This document shows, one piece after another, positions 6,864-41,201 of a stretch of 64,000 nucleotides of DNA. The DNA lies in NCBI RefSeq assembly GCF_014524565.1, contig NZ_CP060139.1:496001-560000 (forward strand), given 5' to 3'. A program made the position numbers and the translations under genes. The stretch comes from Croceimicrobium hydrocarbonivorans. Lineage in GTDB: Bacteria; Bacteroidota; Bacteroidia; Flavobacteriales; Schleiferiaceae. The notes below the pieces were generated by a model, which did no database searches, was not told the origin of the DNA, and was given only the letters and a program-made list of their open reading frames with translations. Positions within the stretch are counted from its first letter, which is position 1. The number at the start of each line of letters is the position of its first letter.

Positions 6864-7535
6864 ATGAAAGTACTACGCAACCTTATCCCCATTGTTTTAA
6901 TCTTAGCTCTAAGTTTAAGTCTGCGACCGGTACGAGATTGGTTAGGAAATATCTTTCCTAAAAAGATTGAAAAACGGAGCTTAGCCCTGCAACCTTATGG
7001 CAATTTTGTTCCTGAATGGTCAGCCGAAATTAAAAGAAGCTTGGAGGCCACTTACCCTATGCGATTTCATCTTTTAGAGTCTAGAGATTTACCGGAAACG
7101 GCCTTTGTAAATATCAAGAGTCCTCGCTACCGAGCAGATTCCCTGCTTCGGGATTTAGCTCGCATTAAAGCGGATACCTTGGACCACATCCTTGGCTTAT
7201 GCACTCGAGATATTTCCACCACCAAAAGAGATCGTCAAGGTCAGGTAAAGAAGCCTGAATCACGCTACGCAGACTGGGGTGTTTTTGGACTAGGTCAGCG
7301 CCCGGGAGTTGCGGCTATTGTTTCCAGCTTTCGCTTGATGCGGCCTCCCAAAGAGCTTTTCCTGGATCGATTAAAAAAGGTCAGCATCCATGAAGTAGGT
7401 CATAATTTAGGCTTGAAACACTGTGCAGAGCTCAACTGTGTTATGGCGGATGCCGCCGAAAGCCTTAGTACAGTAGACCAGGTTGGTTTTGAGCTCTGCA
7501 AGAAATGCAAACATGAAATTGGCCTTAAAGATTAA
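6864..7535 (+). CDS. amzA: Archaemetzincin-type zinc metalloprotease, membrane-anchored
   Basis: The family signature is complete: HEVGHNLGLKHC (residues 176-187 from ATG 6864), then a C-V-M Met-turn about 5 residues later and a CKKC pair (about 212-215). These are the zinc-binding His residues, catalytic Glu and the extra four-Cys structural zinc site that define archaemetzincins (peptidase M54). I start at ATG 6864, just after the upstream stop, because it begins a single N-terminal hydrophobic segment (MKVLRNLIPIVLILALSL). That implies export or membrane anchoring, unlike typical soluble archaemetzincins. The natural substrate of the family is poorly known. It sits in an operon with an S41 and a LAS peptidase. 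Confidence 0.88.
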   Translation: MKVLRNLIPIVLILALSLSLRPVRDWLGNIFPKKIEKRSLALQPYGNFVPEWSAEIKRSLEATYPMRFHLLESRDLPETAFVNIKSPRYRADSLLRDLARIKADTLDHILGLCTRDISTTKRDRQGQVKKPESRYADWGVFGLGQRPGVAAIVSSFRLMRPPKELFLDRLKKVSIHEVGHNLGLKHCAELNCVMADAAESLSTVDQVGFELCKKCKHEIGLKD

Positions 7536-7539
7536 TAGT

Positions 7540-8472
7540 ATGCGCTTGAAAATAAGCCTTTGCCTATCACTGCTCTTCATAGGCCTTCATGCACAGAATC
7601 AGCCTCCTATGCTTTTTCAGATGTACTATCAAGGCTATGAGCGGATGCCCAATTTTCACTTTGTTTCATTAAGTGAGGCCTATTTCTCCCATTTAGAAAA
7701 AGAACCTCCAGTTATTGCGGAGGACTATTTAGAATATGCTGGGTTCAAGGAGCAGAACTACCATGTGCTTAGTGCTACTAATCGCAAGCTTTTCCTGGAT
7801 CGTTGTGGTTTCAATGAAAAAGACTTTCTTTTTGTTTATGATCTGGATTCCAATATCACATTAAAATTCCCGCTTAGGAAACTCAAAGTATCGGCCTTCC
7901 TCAGTCTTTACTCAGGCGAAAATGATCAGCCCTTTCATGAATATGACTATGTGATAGGTTTGGAAATAGACTCCAATTTCCTGCCCTTAAGCTATAATGT
8001 GCATCAAAATAATTTTGCCATCATAGCCTCAGAGAACCCCTTTGAAAAAGCCAATACTGAAATCATGCAATTCACCGAAATGCCCTATGAGCATGTTCCC
8101 TTTGTGGATAGCTTAAGCCCCAAGGACAGCACTTCCCTCTTCTTCTTTAAATATAAATATGGCCCACTTCAAATTATTGCCATGGATAGAGGCGAAAAGT
8201 TCCGCCCGCATTACCGTCGACTTTTGGTCTATGATCTAAGACGCGGCGTTTATATCAATAGCCGCGAGTATTTCGACTCCGAAGGTAGTTCAGTAGCGCC
8301 CCTTAGTATTCAAGGTCGTAATTTTGGTGCCAACCAATGGGTAGGCCCCTTAATTAAAGGCCATGGTCCCATCCTATTTGGTTTCAGCTACCAGTCCTTT
8401 AGCTGTGTAAATTTAGAGTTTCTGGTACCTGGACAAATGCCGCTTCCTATATTATGCGACAATCGACATTAA
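7540..8472 (+). CDS. Secreted protein of unknown function
   Basis: From ATG 7540 (4 bp after the previous stop) a signal peptide ends near GLHAQNQ and a 310-residue product follows. The mature part is rich in aromatic residues and alternates short beta-like strands; I see no catalytic motif, lipobox or T9SS tail. I do not recognise the family. It overlaps the following TPR gene by 19 bp, so the pair is probably cotranslated. Its only context is the surrounding set of exported peptidases. Confidence 0.65.
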   Translation: MRLKISLCLSLLFIGLHAQNQPPMLFQMYYQGYERMPNFHFVSLSEAYFSHLEKEPPVIAEDYLEYAGFKEQNYHVLSATNRKLFLDRCGFNEKDFLFVYDLDSNITLKFPLRKLKVSAFLSLYSGENDQPFHEYDYVIGLEIDSNFLPLSYNVHQNNFAIIASENPFEKANTEIMQFTEMPYEHVPFVDSLSPKDSTSLFFFKYKYGPLQIIAMDRGEKFRPHYRRLLVYDLRRGVYINSREYFDSEGSSVAPLSIQGRNFGANQWVGPLIKGHGPILFGFSYQSFSCVNLEFLVPGQMPLPILCDNRH

Positions 8473-9644
8473 TACTGCTCTTAATTATCGGCGGCTTCCA
8501 TTCTGGGCTTTCTGCCCAAGGCACGGTATTGAAAAAAAGTCAGGCACTGATCTATCAAAACCTATATGCTCAAGCATTTGCAGTGCTCGATCAAGCGGAT
8601 TCTAAGAATCAGAACAGCGACATATTTGTAGCCAAACTGCATTTGATCTTGGATTTCCACTGCTATACAAAGGACTATCTTCATTTTGCCCTTTGCGATT
8701 TACACAGTGGCGAAAAAATGGATTCCTTACGAAGCATTCCTAAAGAAGATGGACTCATCTATTTCAAAGCCGACTCTATTGGGAAGGAACTATTGATCAA
8801 AGAACCCGGCAATATGCAGCTGCATTTAGCCATGGGCTATTTCTATCAGAAATTATTGGAGGCCAATCAAAAGGACTATATGCCAAGCTCCGCGGCACAA
8901 AGCCGCATGCAAATGCACTATGAATTGGCCGATCGGCAAGGCAGCCGCAATTATCAGTCGATGTACAGCCTGGGAATATTAGCCATGAAAGGCCTCGATT
9001 TTCAATCAGCCCTACCCTATTTGCAAAAGGCTATAGAACTAAAGCCCGATCATGCAGAATCGCAGGCAAACCTGGCCTATGCCCTATTGCAATTAAACAG
9101 ACAGGAAGAAGCACGCCTGCATGCCGACCTGGCCCAGAAATATTTCGAGGATCCAATATTAAAGGCCGAAGCTGCCTCCATGATGGCACTCTCTTTTTTA
9201 CAATCGGGAAAAGACAGCTTAGCCCTCAACTATTTCCGACAGGCTTATGCCACCAATCCGGATGAAATGCTCAGTCTTCGGAATATCTTACAATTGGAGA
9301 GAAAACTGGATAGCAACAGTTTTAAGCAAAGCCGATTCATTTATTTCAAAAAGGAGCCAAAAAGTACCACTACCTTCAAAGACTTATACAGTCTACATCC
9401 CAGTTTAAAGGAGAAAAAAGCCTTGCTCGCTTTCTATCAAGAACAATTAAAAACTGAGCAGGAGCCCGTAGTCCTGGCGAATTTACACCTCTTTAGTGCA
9501 GTACTTTTAAAGGACTTTGAAGAGGCAGACGCCATGCAGAAGGAACTGGCTTTGGCTCGCGAAATTTACCTTGAGGAATACCCTCCCGAGCATGATATTT
9601 TCGTTTTCATGCGTAGCTATTTCAGCCCTAAAAATTCCCAATGA
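8454..9644 (+). CDS. Exported TPR-repeat protein
   Basis: 396 residues with a signal peptide (cleavage near GLSAQGT) followed by helical repeats. The clearest TPR units are about residues 172-240, including ALPYLQKAIELKPDHAESQANL with the usual A/G/Y/P pattern, and NYFRQAYATNPDEM further on. TPR domains mount protein-protein contacts, so this could be a periplasmic scaffold for the operon's enzymes. It ends in an ATGA overlap with the next gene. No enzymatic motif is visible. Confidence 0.75.
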   Translation: MRQSTLILLLIIGGFHSGLSAQGTVLKKSQALIYQNLYAQAFAVLDQADSKNQNSDIFVAKLHLILDFHCYTKDYLHFALCDLHSGEKMDSLRSIPKEDGLIYFKADSIGKELLIKEPGNMQLHLAMGYFYQKLLEANQKDYMPSSAAQSRMQMHYELADRQGSRNYQSMYSLGILAMKGLDFQSALPYLQKAIELKPDHAESQANLAYALLQLNRQEEARLHADLAQKYFEDPILKAEAASMMALSFLQSGKDSLALNYFRQAYATNPDEMLSLRNILQLERKLDSNSFKQSRFIYFKKEPKSTTTFKDLYSLHPSLKEKKALLAFYQEQLKTEQEPVVLANLHLFSAVLLKDFEEADAMQKELALAREIYLEEYPPEHDIFVFMRSYFSPKNSQ

Positions 9645-10108
9645 AAAGTAGATTAGCCTTGGCTAAGATGGAGGACCTCCCGGCCATGAAAAGTTTATTT
9701 GAGGCCAGTATTCGCCAAACCTGCAACCAAGACTACAGTCCTGAAGAAATTGAGGCTTGGCTTTTAAGCTTAAAGAACAAGCAACGCTGGGAGGAGCTTA
9801 TCCAAAACCAAATAGTTTGGCTGGCTCTAGTCGAAGCTGATTTAGCCGGTTTTTGCAGTTTAAAAGATGGACATTATTTGGACTTCCTTTATGTATTACC
9901 CGATCATCAAGGATTAGGCATTGCCAAGCAATTAGTTGCTGCTGCTATTGATGAAACCAGAAAGCTGGGGAATACTAAAATAAGCTCCGATATCAGTATC
10001 ACGGCCAGACCCTTTATGGAAGCGCAAGGATGGAAGGTAATTCGGATGAATGAAAACCCGCGGGCTGATCAGACCTTGATCAATTACCGAATGGAATTGG
10101 AGCTCTAA
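9641..10108 (+). CDS. GNAT-family N-acetyltransferase
   Basis: 155 residues with a GNAT fold: N-terminal R/A-rich strand and EIEAWLLSL helix, a central strand LDFLYVLPDHQGLGIAKQL holding the acetyl-CoA loop (pattern Q/R-x-x-G-x-G/A) and a C-terminal GWKVIRMNENPR strand. Members acetylate small amines or protein N-termini; the acceptor is unknown. It is cytoplasmic (no signal), and it is the last gene of the plus-strand operon, overlapping the TPR gene by 4 bp (ATGA). Confidence 0.8.
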   Translation: MKSRLALAKMEDLPAMKSLFEASIRQTCNQDYSPEEIEAWLLSLKNKQRWEELIQNQIVWLALVEADLAGFCSLKDGHYLDFLYVLPDHQGLGIAKQLVAAAIDETRKLGNTKISSDISITARPFMEAQGWKVIRMNENPRADQTLINYRMELEL

Positions 10109-36748: not shown

Positions 36749-38488
36749 ATGGATGCTCGAATTTCATATCTGAGAAAAGCCTGGAAGGGCTATTTGGCTC
36801 TACTAATTTTGAGCTTTTTAATGCTGCAAAGATTGCTCTTGGCTCCCCCAAAAATGTTGGAGGATAGAAAGAGCTTGGAAGCAGTAATCCGCTTGAACTA
36901 TATTGAAAAGAAAGGAGAAAAGTATCAAATCCATTTTTCGCAATCATCAGAAAATTACTATTGTCTGAGTTCGGATAGTATCTGCGCCCGTTGGAAAGCT
37001 GGTGATCTATTTTGGATGGATGGAGATCTAATACCTATCTCCGGCCCTTCCCGTCCTGATCAATTTAATTTTAAAGCCTATCTCCAGAATCAAAATCTTA
37101 TTGCTCGTCTCCATTGGAAGCGAATTGCTAAAATAAAGTCGGAAGCCACTTTCAAGGATCTTCTGGTAAACTATCGAAATTCACTAGCCCAAAGGATAGA
37201 TTCCTGGCCCTGGGCAGAAAAGCACAAAGCACTCTATAAGGCCTTATTTCTGGGCTTAAAAGGAGACCTAGACTCTGAGATGCGACAAGACTTTGGAGCC
37301 GCAGGTTTAATGCATGTATTAGCGGTTAGCGGGCTGCATTTGGGAATGATATATCTTTTACTTCAATTCCTCTTAAAACCACTTAAGGCATTGCCCTACT
37401 TCCGAATCCTGAATTGCATTTTAAGCATTATAGGGATATGGGCTTTTAGCTTTTTAAGCGGAGCTGGTCCCTCCGTACTTCGTGCAGCTACTCTTTTTAG
37501 TTTTTTAGCTATTGGTAAAGCCATTAACAGACCCGGTAGTGGTTTAAGCTCAGTTTGGGCCTCCGCTCTGGTTCTGCTCTGGTTTCAACCCTTATTAATA
37601 CGACAATTGGGCTTTCTCTTAAGCTATTCTGCCGTAATTGGAATACTTTTCTTGGTTCCTAAAATGAAAGCCTGGCACAGCTTCAAATTTCAGCCTTTGA
37701 AATCTGTTCAAGAGCTTATTTATGTTTCCATTGCAGCGCAATTATTTACGGCTCCCATCAGCCTAAATACCTTCGGAAGTTTTCCCCTTTATTTTTTGTT
37801 GGCCAACCTTTTGGTACTACCCCTAATGAGCCTAATTATGTACGCAGGTTTATTGGTTCTTCTATTGGACCCATTCCCCATCTTTTCATTTTTCCGCGAC
37901 AGCTTTCCGATAGCCTTGGAGTACATGAGCAAGATTAGCGCCTGGATAAGCAGCTTCCCTAATGCCCAGATCCAGTGGAATATTTCCTGGTTCAATTGTA
38001 CCCTGAGCTATATCCTTTTAGCCTATTGGCTAATTCATTCCAGGCTTAGCTTGAAAAAGTTCATCGCTTTAATAATGTGTTTGGGAATCATTAGCTATGG
38101 TCAAAGTCTTTATCAAAAGATGGTGACCGCTCAAAGCTTGGTGATCTACTCTGGAAATGACAGGGAATTGGTCTACAGAACTGGCTCAACAGAGTATCAT
38201 CTAAATGCAGGTGAAGTCAAAACTTCTCAGCGAAAGCTAAGTTCATTGCCCTATATAGATCAAAACCTAAATATTAAGGAGGAGAAAGACCAGATAATTC
38301 TCACTTCTCCTTTATCTGTTAATAGCCTAATACTGGTGAATGATCAGACCCAGATGGAAGTTAAAGATTCTGCTCTGGTAGTTTACACCGGGTTCTCACT
38401 AGAAAAAGAAAAAGCCTGGCAATCCTATTGCCAGGCTTTGAATATATCCTTTAGAAGTTGCCGTAAAGGCTACCTAACAATACCTTAG
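36749..38488 (+). CDS. comEC: ComEC/Rec2-family DNA uptake protein
   Basis: 579 residues. A soluble OB-like part (about 45-125: AVIRLNYIEKKGEKYQIHF, WKAGDLFWMDGDL) is followed by the Competence domain with several transmembrane helices and the signature GLMHVLAVSGLHLGMIY, then FSFLSGAGPSVLRAATLF. It forms the inner-membrane channel for single-stranded DNA in natural transformation. No beta-lactamase-like C-terminal domain is seen. The N-terminus looks short: a hydrophobic stretch in another frame ends just downstream of the ATG (see findings). The stop overlaps the convergent gene by 4 bp. Confidence 0.88.
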   Translation: MDARISYLRKAWKGYLALLILSFLMLQRLLLAPPKMLEDRKSLEAVIRLNYIEKKGEKYQIHFSQSSENYYCLSSDSICARWKAGDLFWMDGDLIPISGPSRPDQFNFKAYLQNQNLIARLHWKRIAKIKSEATFKDLLVNYRNSLAQRIDSWPWAEKHKALYKALFLGLKGDLDSEMRQDFGAAGLMHVLAVSGLHLGMIYLLLQFLLKPLKALPYFRILNCILSIIGIWAFSFLSGAGPSVLRAATLFSFLAIGKAINRPGSGLSSVWASALVLLWFQPLLIRQLGFLLSYSAVIGILFLVPKMKAWHSFKFQPLKSVQELIYVSIAAQLFTAPISLNTFGSFPLYFLLANLLVLPLMSLIMYAGLLVLLLDPFPIFSFFRDSFPIALEYMSKISAWISSFPNAQIQWNISWFNCTLSYILLAYWLIHSRLSLKKFIALIMCLGIISYGQSLYQKMVTAQSLVIYSGNDRELVYRTGSTEYHLNAGEVKTSQRKLSSLPYIDQNLNIKEEKDQIILTSPLSVNSLILVNDQTQMEVKDSALVVYTGFSLEKEKAWQSYCQALNISFRSCRKGYLTIP

Positions 38489-38919
38489 TTCTGGAAGATT
38501 GCGCTTAGCGCTGCTAAAATCTTACGTTTCTCTAGCGGACGACGCAGCACATAGGCAAATCCATTGTGAATTGCTCTACCTACTAAATCATTACTACTAA
38601 TAGCTACCACTGGGGATTTTACCAGGCCCTCTTTACGCAATTGCTGTAAGATGCCCATAGCATTTTCATTGTCGAGACGCGAGTTCATCAGTATTAAGTC
38701 ATAACGACTTTTACTTAGGGTCTTACGCATTTCTTCAATGCTTTTAGCTACGTTTAAAACGCCACCACTTTCTACCACCATATACCGAAGTAACATTTCG
38801 TCTACCTCATTGGCACCGGCTAGTAATACTCTTTTTCCTTCTAAAAAATGACTCATGGATCGATTTACAAGCTGTATTCGTTCTTCCTCCGCAATTACGC
38901 CATTTTTTGTTGCCATCAT
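38485..38919 (-). CDS. Degenerate response-regulator receiver (pseudo-receiver)
   Basis: 144 residues: a 25-residue N-terminal extension, then a single CheY-like receiver fold (VLLAGANEVDEMLLRYMV ... YDLILMNSRLDNENAMGILQQLR ... SPVVAISSN ... AYVLRRPLEKRKIL). The phosphoacceptor Asp is replaced by Asn 79, the Lys before Pro by Arg 127, and the acidic pocket by Gly-Ala. Phosphorylation is therefore unlikely; it should act as a fixed-state or protein-binding receiver. No output domain follows. A good promoter and an operator-like palindrome lie upstream, shared with the nearby histidine kinase. Confidence 0.8.
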   Translation of the reverse strand: MMATKNGVIAEEERIQLVNRSMSHFLEGKRVLLAGANEVDEMLLRYMVVESGGVLNVAKSIEEMRKTLSKSRYDLILMNSRLDNENAMGILQQLRKEGLVKSPVVAISSNDLVGRAIHNGFAYVLRRPLEKRKILAALSAIFQN

Positions 38920-38981
38920 ATTAATCCTGTGTTATTTGCCCCCTCATTAAGCGTACTAAGTACACTAAGTATTTACTGTCG

Positions 38982-39010
38982 CAAATATAGTGTTTTAGTA
39001 CAATCGACAA
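38982..39010 (-). promoter_or_regulatory. Promoter of the pseudo-receiver gene
   Basis: Minus-strand TTG (39010-39008), 18-nt spacer, TATATTTG (38989-38982): a full match to the Bacteroidota pattern. It implies a start near 38976 and a leader of about 55 nt. That leader contains a tandem 9-bp repeat, ACTAAGTAC/ACTAAGTAT (38955-38972, plus strand). Confidence 0.65.
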
Positions 39011-39046
39011 TAAGCTTATAGAACAGATAAATTGAGCTGATAATTA
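39009..39046 (-). promoter_or_regulatory. Palindromic operator-like element, copy 1
   Basis: AATAAGCTTATAGA, with the perfect palindrome ATAAGCTTAT at 39010-39019, followed by TTGAG and ATAATTA. The same elements in the same order occur at 41259-41292 upstream of the histidine kinase. Here the palindrome abuts the -33 TTG of the pseudo-receiver promoter. Confidence 0.5.
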
Positions 39047-39240
39047 GCGACGCAGAGTTATAGTACTTGATAAGCTTTTAAGCTTTCAAGTTCCTCAAAT
39101 ATAAGATGATTTGAGAATTGAATGCAAGCTAAGTTCGAATGCTAATAGTAAAATGATCTAAGTACTTGTTCAGAAGTTCCGTTCCTTTATTCTTAGGAAT
39201 TAGAAATGCCCTCAATTTTTAGTAATGGGATTGGGATTGC

Positions 39241-39300
39241 TGGCAGTCCGGACAAGACTCGAACTCGTCTCGGCCTAGCCGAGATGACTGGCATGTATTC
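39241..39300 (-). pseudogene. Partial tRNA-Asp copy (3' half, altered centre)
   Basis: It matches the complete tRNA-Asp at 39722-39798 in two blocks: acceptor 3' strand, CCA and T-arm (39241-39267, 3 mismatches in the tRNA part), and the start of the anticodon stem with GTC (39285-39300, 1 mismatch in 16). Between them the anticodon 3' stem and variable loop are replaced by a perfect 7-bp hairpin TCTCGGC-TAG-GCCGAGA. The 5' acceptor strand and D-arm are absent, so it cannot be a working tRNA. The homology also runs about 8 bp past the CCA. The GIY-YIG gene stop codon overlaps its edge. Confidence 0.75.
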
Positions 39301-39574
39301 AGAGTAGTTCATTTTGGGGCGTTTTTACCAGCCACTTTAAATAAGGTCGGTTTTGAACTTTTAAATACTTCTCATGCCGCAATGCTTCTTCCTTGCTTGC
39401 AAACTTTCTTAAATACACCAATACCCATGGGCCTTTATTCCTAGTATACCGACTTCGACCTTCATTATGGGCTCTTAAGCGCAATTCCACATTTTGGCTA
39501 TAACCTTTATACATTATATCAGACTTTTCTGAGTAAATCATATAGGTATAGAATCCTTCCATCCCCATAACCAA
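39299..39574 (-). CDS. Small GIY-YIG nuclease-domain protein (UPF0213-like)
   Basis: 91 residues, one GIY-YIG domain: FYTYMIYSEKSD (GIY strand), IMYKGYSQNVELRLRAHN (YIG variant YKG, with catalytic-type Arg and His), then GPWVLVYLRKFASKEEALRHEKYLK and NRPYLKWL. The likely start is ATG 39562 (MEGFYTY), with other in-frame starts up to 39574. GIY-YIG domains cut DNA in homing endonucleases, UvrC and structure-specific nucleases; UPF0213 members lack a proven role. The gene lies between a complete and a partial tRNA-Asp, all on the same strand, and its TGA stop falls in the tRNA fragment. Confidence 0.85.
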   Translation of the reverse strand: MVMGMEGFYTYMIYSEKSDIMYKGYSQNVELRLRAHNEGRSRYTRNKGPWVLVYLRKFASKEEALRHEKYLKVQNRPYLKWLVKTPQNELL

Positions 39575-39684
39575 AGGGCAATCAATGAAATTGGTTGATC
39601 AAGACTTTCCTCAATTAAGTGACTATAAAGCAGAATGACACCTCTTCCTTAAACCAACTCACTTACGAAAGCTTAGAAAACAAA

Positions 39685-39714
39685 AAACCCCCACAAATTG
39701 CTTTGAGGGGGTTT
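39685..39714 (-). terminator. Terminator of the tRNA-Asp transcript
   Basis: AAACCCCC (39685-39692) pairs with GGGGGTTT (39707-39714), 14-nt loop. On the minus strand the stem is followed by a T-run. It sits 8 bp after the tRNA 3' end, between tRNA-Asp and the GIY-YIG gene. Confidence 0.85.
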
Positions 39715-39721
39715 GGATTGT

Positions 39722-39798
39722 TGGCGGTCCGGACGAGACTCGAACTCGCGACCCCATGCGTGACAGGCATGTATTCTAACCAACTGAACTACCGGACC
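39722..39798 (-). tRNA. tRNA-Asp (GTC)
   Basis: 77 nt on the minus strand with encoded CCA. The acceptor stem is GGTCCGG/CCGGACC with discriminator G (expected for Asp). The D-loop has AGTTGGTTAGA, the anticodon stem ATGCC...GGCAT-like pairing around CTGTCAC gives anticodon GTC, and the T-arm is GCGAG-TTCGAGT-CTCGT. A strong promoter and a terminator flank it. Confidence 0.97.
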
Positions 39799-39835
39799 AG
39801 ATTTTTTAAGAACATCGTTTTCTCAAACGCGGGTG

Positions 39836-39865
39836 CAAATATAAGGGTAGATTTTAGTGACGCAA
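39836..39865 (-). promoter_or_regulatory. Promoter of tRNA-Asp
   Basis: Minus-strand TTG (39865-39863), 19-nt spacer, TATATTTG (39843-39836). This is an ideal Bacteroidota promoter, placing the start about 30 nt before the tRNA. It lies just after the 3' end... of the histidine kinase gene (stop at 39894), which is transcribed in the same direction. Confidence 0.7.
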
Positions 39866-39893
39866 GCCCTTCAAGAAAAAAAATTAAAAAAAA

Positions 39894-41201
39894 TTAAACA
39901 TTGTAGCTTTCGCCCCAGACACGCGGGATACGGACGGTAAAGCAAGTTCCTTTATCCTTAACACTGCGCACCTCAATTGTGCCATTCATATAATTCAGAA
40001 ACTCAGCGCATAACATTAAGCCTAAGCCTACCCCCTTCTCTTTATTAGTACCTAATCCAACCTCTCGATGCGGTGAAAATAATTTTTTGCGTTGCTCCTC
40101 GGTCATACCAATGCCATTGTCCTCTACTTCCAACCTAAGCTCAGACTCCATCTCATAAGCGCGAACCTTAATCCATCCACCCTTAGGTGTGAACTTAATG
40201 GCATTGCTAATTAGGTTTCGGATAATCATCTCTAGCATATCTGCATCGCCTGTAACCGCACCTTCCCCTTCATCAATCAAAATCTGTAGGCTAATTCCTT
40301 TGGCGTCCGATAAGGGACGTAAATGCTCCCCTACCATCTTTATAAGCTTAGGATAGTCTATCCTGGATGCTTGATAGGCTTTAGTATCTCTTTTGGCCCA
40401 GCGTAAAAGATTATCTAGAAGAGCCCGACTATTACGCGTTAATCGCAGCAATTCATTCTGCATAATTTTACGCTCTTCATCGGGAACACCACCATGGTCC
40501 ATCACATTCAGAAAGCCTTCAATTCCTGAAAGAGGGCTACGCAAATCATGACCAATGATTGAGAATAAGCGATCCTTCTGGGCGGAAAGCTCTTTGGTCT
40601 CCACCATTTGCTTTTCCATCTTCTGGCTAATCTGCTCCAGCTCGCGCTTTTGTTTGCCTACCAAAGCTGTGGATTGATCGTACATCATCTTTAAATACAC
40701 AGTACCGAGGTAGAAAATACAGGTAAAAGCAAAATAGGTTAAGAAATAAACCCAAGTGGTTTGAGAATCTGGCATCGGGGCCAGATAAAATATTAGGTCT
40801 AAACCAAATATCAATACTACTATAAAATTGATCCGTTGCTCTAAACTGGTTTTGGAAACAACTAGGCTTAAAACAAAAAACATCACTATACCATAAACCA
40901 CGGGCCCCTTGAAGAAACCGGTTAATGGAAAAATGAGATGCGAGAAAAACAGTACCACTAAGGTGAGAAGTACCTTGGCTAAACCAAGCCTTCGCCACAA
41001 TCGCACCAATAAATAACAAGAAATTAAGCTAAGCCCTAAAACCAGTAAATAAAAAGCAGCCCGCCCTGCTTGTTGAATATAGAGCGGTAAGGTCAGGAGG
41101 ATTAAAAAGCAAGCACTGAGGAAGCTGGTACTCATGAATAGTCGCTCTTCAATACTGAAGCTCGAGCTAATTCCGAGTTTTTTCCAGATGTACTGTTCCA
41201 T
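39894..41201 (-). CDS. Membrane-bound sensor histidine kinase
   Basis: 435 residues. Six N-terminal transmembrane helices (about 22-172) with very short loops form the sensor, so it probably senses a membrane or internal signal. A coiled coil (about 175-210) leads to the HisKA domain: SIIGHDLRSPLSG with phosphorylatable His 218. HATPase_c motifs follow: N box NLISNAIKFTPKG, G1 VEDNGIGM, F box FSPH, and G2 EKGVGLGL. No response regulator with an intact Asp is adjacent; the pseudo-receiver gene 1 kb away is the only receiver in the window. Confidence 0.93.
   Translation of the reverse strand: MEQYIWKKLGISSSFSIEERLFMSTSFLSACFLILLTLPLYIQQAGRAAFYLLVLGLSLISCYLLVRLWRRLGLAKVLLTLVVLFFSHLIFPLTGFFKGPVVYGIVMFFVLSLVVSKTSLEQRINFIVVLIFGLDLIFYLAPMPDSQTTWVYFLTYFAFTCIFYLGTVYLKMMYDQSTALVGKQKRELEQISQKMEKQMVETKELSAQKDRLFSIIGHDLRSPLSGIEGFLNVMDHGGVPDEERKIMQNELLRLTRNSRALLDNLLRWAKRDTKAYQASRIDYPKLIKMVGEHLRPLSDAKGISLQILIDEGEGAVTGDADMLEMIIRNLISNAIKFTPKGGWIKVRAYEMESELRLEVEDNGIGMTEEQRKKLFSPHREVGLGTNKEKGVGLGLMLCAEFLNYMNGTIEVRSVKDKGTCFTVRIPRVWGESYNV

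Follow-up and report, generated by a model that had tools for sequence, protein, structure and literature searches.

A candidate minimal homing-type element composed of a GIY-YIG nuclease gene and a hairpin-tagged copy of its neighboring tRNA gene

In Croceimicrobium hydrocarbonivorans, a stand-alone GIY-YIG nuclease gene lies between an intact tRNA-Asp gene and a partial copy of the same tRNA in which a short hairpin, here called P, replaces part of the sequence. The locus falls within a 64,000-nucleotide stretch (NZ_CP060139.1, positions 496,001 to 560,000), which we call the window and to which the coordinates of the locus refer. Comparison with other genomes established that the anatomy is shared and occurs in both polarities, that insertion points recur, that protein clades are specific to the target, and that empty sites and tandem arrays exist. 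We consider it probable that the unit is a minimal selfish, intronless element resembling a free-standing homing endonuclease gene aimed at a tRNA gene. Cleavage of the tRNA gene, repair of the break, and a role of P in blocking re-cutting of the tagged copy are all inferred.

The initial annotation placed a tRNA-Asp, its terminator, a GIY-YIG gene, and a partial tRNA copy on one strand with a repeat offset of 481 bp, and both the order and the offset were borne out by ARAGORN, Pfam, and direct-repeat analysis (Table 1). The partial copy had been described as the 3′ half of the tRNA; it is tRNA derived but consists of nt 23 to 38 and nt 51 to 77 around a hairpin rather than a plain 3′ half. 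The direct repeat, D1 (64 nt, 77%), does not stop at the 3′ end of the tRNA but takes in a decayed trailer copy as well, and the stop codon of the GIY-YIG open reading frame (ORF) abuts the partial copy. An ATG at 39568 is the likely start of that ORF and would give a protein of 89 aa. The only other frame of at least 50 aa touching the interval is a 92-aa frame on the opposite strand across the tRNA, which had no Pfam match.

Table 1. Coordinates of the tRNA-Asp locus and its neighbors in the window
Feature	Position	Strand	Basis and remarks
Source genome			4.04 Mb, single contig
Upstream neighbor, histidine kinase	39894..41201	-	PF02518 and PF00512; anchor for empty-site comparison
Intact tRNA-Asp (GTC), presumed rebuilt target	39722..39798	-	ARAGORN; Rfam RF00005, 67 bits; sequence same in empty-site relatives G003 and G004
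Terminator hairpin 3′ of intact tRNA	39685..39714 (approx.)	-	Direct sequence reading; fold of tRNA plus hairpin, z -2.6
Stand-alone GIY-YIG nuclease gene	39299..39574	-	91 aa from TTG; PF01541, E 9e-17
Tagged copy, tRNA nt 23-38 (anticodon 5′ arm and anticodon)	39285..39300	-	15/16 nt identical
Hairpin tag P, TCTCGGCTAGGCCGAGA, replacing tRNA nt 39-50	39268..39284	-	17 nt; position same in other Asp-type elements
Tagged copy, tRNA nt 51-77 (T arm, acceptor 3′ strand, CCA)	39241..39267	-	25/27 nt, E 7e-7
Decayed second copy of tRNA trailer/terminator	39204..39240	-	Direct repeat D1; better preserved in relative G001
Downstream neighbor, response-regulator domain protein	38485..38919	-	PF00072; homologous DNA past the tRNA in G004 and G005

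Integrative elements with tRNA attachment sites have a complete tRNA at one end and a tRNA fragment at the other, and the present unit shares this layout, as its tRNA 3′ fragment is repeated at the far end. It differs from them in its length of about 0.36 to 0.5 kb, in having break points and a hairpin inside tRNA arms, and in lacking an integrase, since neither the ORF listing nor Pfam revealed one in the interval. The claim of an element without an integrase thus stood, and a classical integrase-type tRNA element was set aside on this ground. A group I intron was also set aside because an Rfam search over 38400 to 40800 found the tRNA but no intron family, and the GIY-YIG ORF is a single domain. 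One G+C-rich hairpin of the P kind lies near the gene, on one side only, and the window has no overall excess of palindromes (14 found versus 11 to 23 in five shuffles). The same layout recurs in dozens of other genomes, which is more than chance would give.

AlphaFold modeled the window protein with a pLDDT of 92.6, and the closest solved sequences and folds are the UPF0213 proteins (1zg2 and 1ywl), followed by SLX1, a structure-specific nuclease. Residues Y9, Y20, G22, R30, H34, and E66 are invariant in the 20 rows of alignment A1, so that the protein keeps the conserved Y, YxG, R, H, and E positions, which we take to correspond to residues of I-TevI. The PHROG endonuclease family gave only a weak match, and NCBIfam gave none. 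No PADLOC model matched (0 families), so the locus does not qualify as a known anti-phage defense system, and a defense gene was set aside.

Empty sites with a single tRNA-Asp, as anticipated in the initial annotation, are present in three members of the same genus. Orthologues of the upstream histidine kinase were identified in G001 (95%), G003 (70%), G004 (70%), and G005 (50%). In G003, G004, and G005 the kinase is accompanied by one tRNA-Asp, with no GIY gene and no tRNA fragment in the roughly 1.3 kb read downstream; GIY matches occur elsewhere in those genomes. The one locus therefore has occupied alleles (G000 and G001) and empty alleles (G003, G004, and G005). As to resistance of the occupied allele, the signs are divided: the tagged copy is altered at the presumed cut point, but the intact tRNA of the window is identical to that of the empty relatives G003 and G004. 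The gene thus has three features of a free-standing homing endonuclease gene, namely the conserved catalytic positions of the homing family, a location outside any intron or intein, and both occupied and empty alleles, whereas resistance and site-specific cleavage would be further features and are presumed only. Neither of the two outcomes named in the initial annotation as speaking against a mobile element was obtained. We conclude that the mobile layout of the proposed "minimal tRNA-homing cassette" is supported by empty sites and recurring fragments, but that homing itself, meaning cleavage and biased inheritance, remains an inference.

Elements elsewhere have one of two layouts. The 3′ type has the order intact tRNA, gene, and then part of the tRNA 5′ half, P, and the 3′ half, and the 5′ type has the order 5′ half, P, and remnant, then gene, and then intact tRNA (L046, L047, L055, L116, L119, and L166). 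A script labeled 85 of 134 nonduplicate loci as having a 3′-type gene and 17 as having a 5′-type gene; one locus can bear both labels, and arrays that have tRNAs on either side account for some of the 5′ labels. At L047, L050, and L055, the ORF ends at the TAG in the D arm of the tRNA or of its copy, which serves as the stop codon. The mirror-image type, the hairpin, the many targets, and the arrays had all been missed in the earlier, otherwise supported picture.

P is a near-perfect, G+C-rich hairpin that stands in for a short stretch of tRNA in the partial copy, and its location depends on the target. In the copies read, P replaces the anticodon arm in Ala, Val, Pro, and 3′-type Arg(TCT) elements, the 3′ anticodon strand plus variable loop in Asp and Met elements, the variable loop in Asn elements, and the D-loop region in 5′ types. 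The boundaries recur at fixed tRNA positions across tRNA-linked copies, as had been suggested. In the Asp type, P sits between nt 38 and 51 and is nearly always bounded TGTCA/TC...GA/C, where slashes mark the junctions; 33 of the 36 rows in the boundary table are tagged copies, a few of them decayed, and the other 3 are chance or intact-tRNA matches. Many tagged copies have a second, similar hairpin 12 to 16 nt further on that replaces the acceptor strand. Among 26 distinct Asp-type hairpins, pairs 1 to 7 are Watson-Crick in 179 of 182 cells, with one G-U pair. Both sides change at pairs 3, 5, 6, and 7, at which 103 of 104 cells are Watson-Crick, indicating that the arms covary.

P also folds as an RNA hairpin and the tagged copies retain the tRNA T-arm sequence, which would favor an RNA-level device in which the tagged tRNA acts on the nuclease mRNA as a decoy, regulator, or 3′-processing signal, perhaps as part of toxin-antitoxin or defense functions. 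The two layouts, however, lose opposite halves of the tRNA, and this mirror symmetry fits insertion into a tRNA and is hard to reconcile with a single RNA-level role. The near absence of G-U pairs from the P arms (1 of 182 cells, pairs 1 to 7), the existence of empty sites, and the lack of a PADLOC match also speak against an RNA-level device, to which we give very little credence.

How a homing-type element could generate both layouts can be proposed from the arrangement alone. The GIY-YIG nuclease would recognize one tRNA gene and cut where P now sits, which for tRNA-Asp would be after nt 38. Repair from an element-bearing template would then place at the break the 3′ half of the tRNA with its trailer, followed by the nuclease gene, a portion of the 5′ half, and P, such that the upstream side would again be a complete tRNA and the downstream side would be a dead copy with its target replaced by P. 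When the gene precedes the tRNA, the insertion would be the mirror image: P, remnant, gene, and tRNA 5′ half. Tandem arrays might arise from repeated events or from recombination between copies. If the proposal is correct, the element would be tolerated because the tRNA is rebuilt, but the rebuilt tRNA still holds the uncut target, and thus how the carrier survives its own nuclease is unexplained.

The source genome contains two further small stand-alone GIY genes, L002 and L003, and so carries three variants with three targets. At L002, tRNA-Arg(CCT) lies downstream of the gene; the locus also contains three 5′-half copies of this tRNA, in all of which the D-loop region holds a palindrome of type CCYGCCTRNCGKCAGGCRGG. 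At L003 there is no intact tRNA nearby, but there are fragments similar to the 3′ sequence of tRNA-Met, and two of these bear TCCGCCATAGGCGGA. A weak seventh GIY match in this genome (L007) was dropped, as it fell under the family cutoff and has an internal stop.

A protein search of 149 related genomes, the source genome included, returned matches in 34. ARAGORN called a tRNA at 24 of the 30 loci fetched from related genomes (window included), and every tRNA listed is on the strand of the gene. Scanning one genome per species, for near relatives of the Asp type only, gave 42 named loci, 37 of which have a same-strand tRNA within 1.6 kb. The hosts were Flavobacterium, Mesonia, Psychroflexus, Chryseobacterium, Ferruginibacter, Fluviicola, Mucilaginibacter, Daejeonella, and other Bacteroidota, and there were metagenome-assembled genome (MAG) contigs assigned to Chlorobiota, Nitrospiraceae, Marinimicrobia (two), Omnitrophota, Poribacteria, Daviesbacteria, and Kuenenia. 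Binning errors are possible for the many named cases that rest on such contigs; the Kuenenia contig, whose ORF is truncated and whose tRNA-Asp has the same sequence as the one in L107, may be misbinned. Target tRNAs include Asp, Ala, Val, Met, Arg, Pro, Leu, and Asn, mainly in Bacteroidota. Within the genus Flavobacterium, 122 of 150 genomes had a GIY match at an E value of 1e-12 and 86 at 1e-20, and presence is thus patchy. Searches of phage and plasmid sequences returned 3 and 4 weak records, respectively, none confirmed in viral contigs. With hardly any such copies found, phage or plasmid cargo was set aside, and the vehicle of the element is therefore unknown.

In total, 148 loci yielded 179 ORFs, 164 of them unique, and the typical gene encodes about 80 to 100 aa on the same strand as an intact tRNA gene. 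A same-strand tRNA was found less than 600 bp from 112 of the 164 unique ORFs and within 1,200 bp of 120, and an opposite-strand tRNA was found within 1,200 bp of none (0 of 164). Restricting the count to the 124 ORFs with 1,200 bp of sequence on each side gave 94 with a same-strand and 0 with an opposite-strand tRNA within that distance. By locus, a same-strand tRNA lies within 600 bp in 104 of 137. The tRNA fragment expected in relatives of a mobile element is present at 101 of the 137 loci with a GIY ORF, and at 90 it is accompanied by a hairpin, although some "fragment with hairpin" matches are the tRNA's own T arm, e.g., GGGGTTCGAACCCC. Under one common criterion, a G+C-rich hairpin occurs in 116 of 166 fragment windows versus 182 of 2,680 random windows.

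Exceptions to the layout were of several kinds. Nineteen of the 137 loci have neither tRNA nor fragment by our cutoffs, 12 of which are UPF0213-like or other long-branch rows; L044 and L215 are counted here, yet tRNA sequence is visible in them. Seventeen loci lie less than 600 bp from a tRNA but lack a fragment by the cutoffs, and among these a fragment is visible in L002, L091, L099, and L103 and, by eye, in L122, with none in the rest. Four loci (L003, L159, L193, and L200) have fragments only, with no intact tRNA in the examined stretch. At L256 (G294), the gene is flanked by a repeat that is no clear tRNA copy. tmRNA was rejected as a target: two GIY genes are downstream of tmRNA (L167 in G115 and L181 in G005), and no tmRNA fragment was seen beside them.

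Tagged copies and whole units also occur in tandem. The contig of G001, the nearest relative, ends inside the tRNA, and the matching contig carries three tagged copies, one of them decayed, plus the gene. In G002 the gene is preceded by three tandem tagged copies at intervals of about 118 bp and followed by one more, and in the Poribacteria record it is preceded by 11 tRNA-fragment units of 107 bp. Arrays of whole units were found in G123 (8 genes, about 364 bp apart), G285 (7 genes, about 374 bp apart), G124 (3), G170 (5), and G155 (at least 5). Separately, draft assemblies break at or near tRNA arrays (ends of G001 C52 and C73; G002 C210), and elements may be undercounted in draft genomes.

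Proteins sort by target tRNA. On the protein tree the target label changes 25 times, compared to a minimum of 14 and a shuffled mean of 100.3, and none of 200 shuffles gave a number as low. The Asp, Arg, and Met elements of the source genome each cluster with elements from other hosts that share their target. Nine rows form a UPF0213-like clade that has no tRNA linkage and no element layout and serves as an internal negative control. The tree excluded ORFs shorter than 70 aa (leaving 155 of 164), has few columns and many open forks, and includes near-copies that inflate clustering. Apart from four labels set by hand, a script took the target from whichever intact tRNA or fragment was nearest, omitting Lys-TTT, Lys-CTT, and Phe-AAA calls, which were taken to be tagged copies.

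The tandem units raise the question of whether tRNA genes simply duplicate by slippage and the extra copies decay, with the GIY-YIG gene a bystander. tRNA genes are generally prone to recombination, and units without a GIY gene do occur in tandem in G002, G001, and the Poribacteria record. Passive duplication nevertheless leaves unexplained the target-specific protein clades across hosts, the same-strand linkage of 112 to 0, and the recurring position and covariation of the hairpin, and we regard it as unlikely. We conclude that a homing-type element better accounts for the unit.

The nearest working analogue is SegB, a free-standing GIY-YIG homing endonuclease of T-even phages. SegB acts in a tRNA region, where it causes tRNA-Tyr and segB to be amplified in tandem through microhomology that the 5′ end of the tRNA shares with the 3′ end of segB (PMC2988022, PMC13096335). 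Both systems have an intronless GIY-YIG nuclease gene beside tRNA genes, and the present element differs in being cellular and single domain, in having about a dozen target tRNAs with target-sorted clades, in its rebuilt tRNA and hairpin-tagged copy, and in the lack of cleavage data. A 2006 survey of the GIY-YIG superfamily described stand-alone Slx1-like prokaryotic domains, and the three mentions of tRNA in the part of the text available concern a fused tRNA-methyltransferase-like domain and references (PMC1564403). None of the papers among the literature matches listed (in one case the first 20 of 157) appears, from its title and the opening of its abstract, to deal with tRNA-linked GIY-YIG elements of bacteria. 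If our reading is correct, few autonomous-looking mobile elements would be smaller than this unit, which targets essential genes, and its activity would account for tandem tRNA fragments, some assembly breaks at tRNA genes, and some false tRNA calls. The target-sorted clades would also supply many small candidate nucleases, each specific for a tRNA gene.

Hairpins of the P type are not confined to tRNA loci. The pattern TCTCGTN{2,10}ACGAGA, of the Asp type, occurs at 137 sites in 10 Flavobacterium genomes with an Asp-type gene (10, 14, 7, 14, 12, 34, 21, 2, 19, and 4 per genome) versus 9 sites in 10 without one (1, 0, 0, 1, 0, 0, 6, 0, 0, and 1), and the backwards pattern, as a control, occurs 17 and 12 times, respectively. 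The difference has a p value of 0.0002, or 0.002 after subtraction of two sites per element. One interpretation is that P is itself mobile and that the GIY-YIG nuclease spreads its cognate hairpin to hairpin tips genome-wide, with the tRNA locus as an anchor. We entertain this tentatively; it would extend the homing-type explanation and does not exclude it. The gene-present set comprised all genomes with an Asp-type match below 1e-20 among those searched. The gene-absent genomes, however, were chosen by hand as having strong GIY matches but no Asp-type match (loci of Ala or Val type were read in five, and only scores were available for the other five), and phylogeny was not controlled. In addition, G255 has 6 sites without an Asp-type match, and G186 has such a match but only 2 sites, one of them at the element. 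DNA identity at the Val-type locus did not cleanly part Asp-positive from Asp-negative species, as G201 is nearer to G225 and G205 than to G163; the stretches compared include the element itself, and this comparison does not serve as a phylogenetic control.

The settings of the dispersed sites also bear on mobility of P. In two genomes 42 Asp-type sites were read, including 2 that belong to the element itself. An outer stem of 4 bp or more directly carries 22 of the 42, versus a mean of 1.7 and a maximum of 7 in a re-paired control of 500 shuffles. By eye, the stem-borne sites include about a dozen terminators and eight Flavo-1 hairpins. Rfam matches enclose 14 of the 42 (10 in Flavo-1, 2 in a single RNase P RNA, 1 in a SAM riboswitch, and 1 in a cobalamin riboswitch), and 4 are just outside 16S or 23S rRNA. 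Flavo-1 copies lacking the Asp-type hairpin coexist in the same genome. At L256 (G294), the repeat flanking the gene is no clear tRNA copy, and the repeat copy after the gene differs from the copy before it by hairpins of the same kind at two points 12 bp apart, each in place of 9 to 10 nt.

A second pattern, TCCCGA..TCGGGA, likewise follows gene presence. Its median density is 7.5 per Mb in 86 genomes with a strong GIY match versus 2.9 in 64 without (p = 3e-8), and the difference holds in all three genome-size bins of the 150 genomes. Among genomes at least 90% complete, by contrast, the difference does not hold in the smallest size bin (p = 0.15), and three genomes that lack a strong GIY match (G239, G274, and G278) nevertheless have many TCCCGA hairpins.

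Other palindromes did not give as clear a result. The Met-type palindrome, TCCGCCNNNGGCGGA, presents a mixed picture: there are 8 copies in the source genome, 23 in G003, 29 in G123 (13 of them in the G123:C34 array at 7249 to 9814), and 11 in G004, though no Met-type gene was recognized there, and G015, which has a Met-type gene, holds only the element's own copy. With up to one mismatch allowed, the Arg-type palindrome of the source genome is found in 38 places, of which the L002 element accounts for 3 and a repeat-rich stretch from 3.65 to 3.71 Mb for 22; it is not at hairpin tips in the loci read, and no tRNA was found in six loci scanned within that stretch. The sequence examined from the same genome contained only one further Asp-like hairpin. 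An Asp-like hairpin of the source genome lies beside tRNA-Trp, and G005 has a different hairpin at the same place; being a single locus, it was not taken as evidence.

Were P mobile, the units could represent a new class of mobile system in which each nuclease owns a cognate palindrome, with a master in the tagged tRNA copy, that spreads into hairpin loops genome-wide, a view that we hold as possible rather than favored. The loops so reached would perhaps be those of tRNA arms, terminators, Flavo-1, RNase P RNA, riboswitches, and rRNA spacers, a list that is equally provisional. RAYTs and REPs are a precedent, as REP abundance follows RAYT gene presence and such correlation has been used as linking evidence (PMC2817692). 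The likeness consists in a small nuclease gene, an adjacent palindrome, and, as seen in the 20 chosen Flavobacterium genomes without control for phylogeny, cognate palindrome abundance that tracks the gene. The differences are that the present nuclease is GIY-YIG by family and fold and not a tyrosine (Y1/HUH) transposase, that the element is anchored at a tRNA, and that inverted palindromes on both sides of the gene are not found, the window palindrome being on one side only. Rickettsia palindromic elements are also short palindromes, found inside tmRNA and RNase P RNA among other places; neither for them nor for the GC clusters of yeast mitochondria is the mobilizer established, though intron-encoded endonucleases were proposed for GC clusters, and the parts of the papers available name no adjacent cognate nuclease gene (PMC2229807, PMC4478555). 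A class of this kind, if real, would stand beside RAYT/REP as its non-HUH counterpart and suggest how palindromes such as Rickettsia elements or mitochondrial GC clusters spread, and a confirmed hairpin link would make the spread of short genomic palindromes directly testable.

Several minor observations were made along the way. In G296, short palindromes lie within a SAM riboswitch, a cobalamin riboswitch, and, twice, an RNase P RNA (L261, L275, and L268, respectively), and the family match survives in each. Paralogous rRNA operons of G296 (L258 and L259; L257 and L262) have Asp-type hairpins at the same spacer position with different interiors. The stretch C1:3650000-3705000 of the source genome (L134 to L144) is repeat rich and contains many copies of CCTGCCTGCCGGTAGGCGGG, none at hairpin tips in the loci read. 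Finally, ARAGORN, or matching to ARAGORN-called tRNAs, read hairpin-tagged copies as tRNA-Lys(TTT), tRNA-SeC, or tRNA-Phe(AAA), for example at L062 (780 to 860), at L054 (1739 to 1818), and upstream of tRNA-Ala in L156, L189, and L191, and false tRNAs derived from tagged copies may be present in public annotations.
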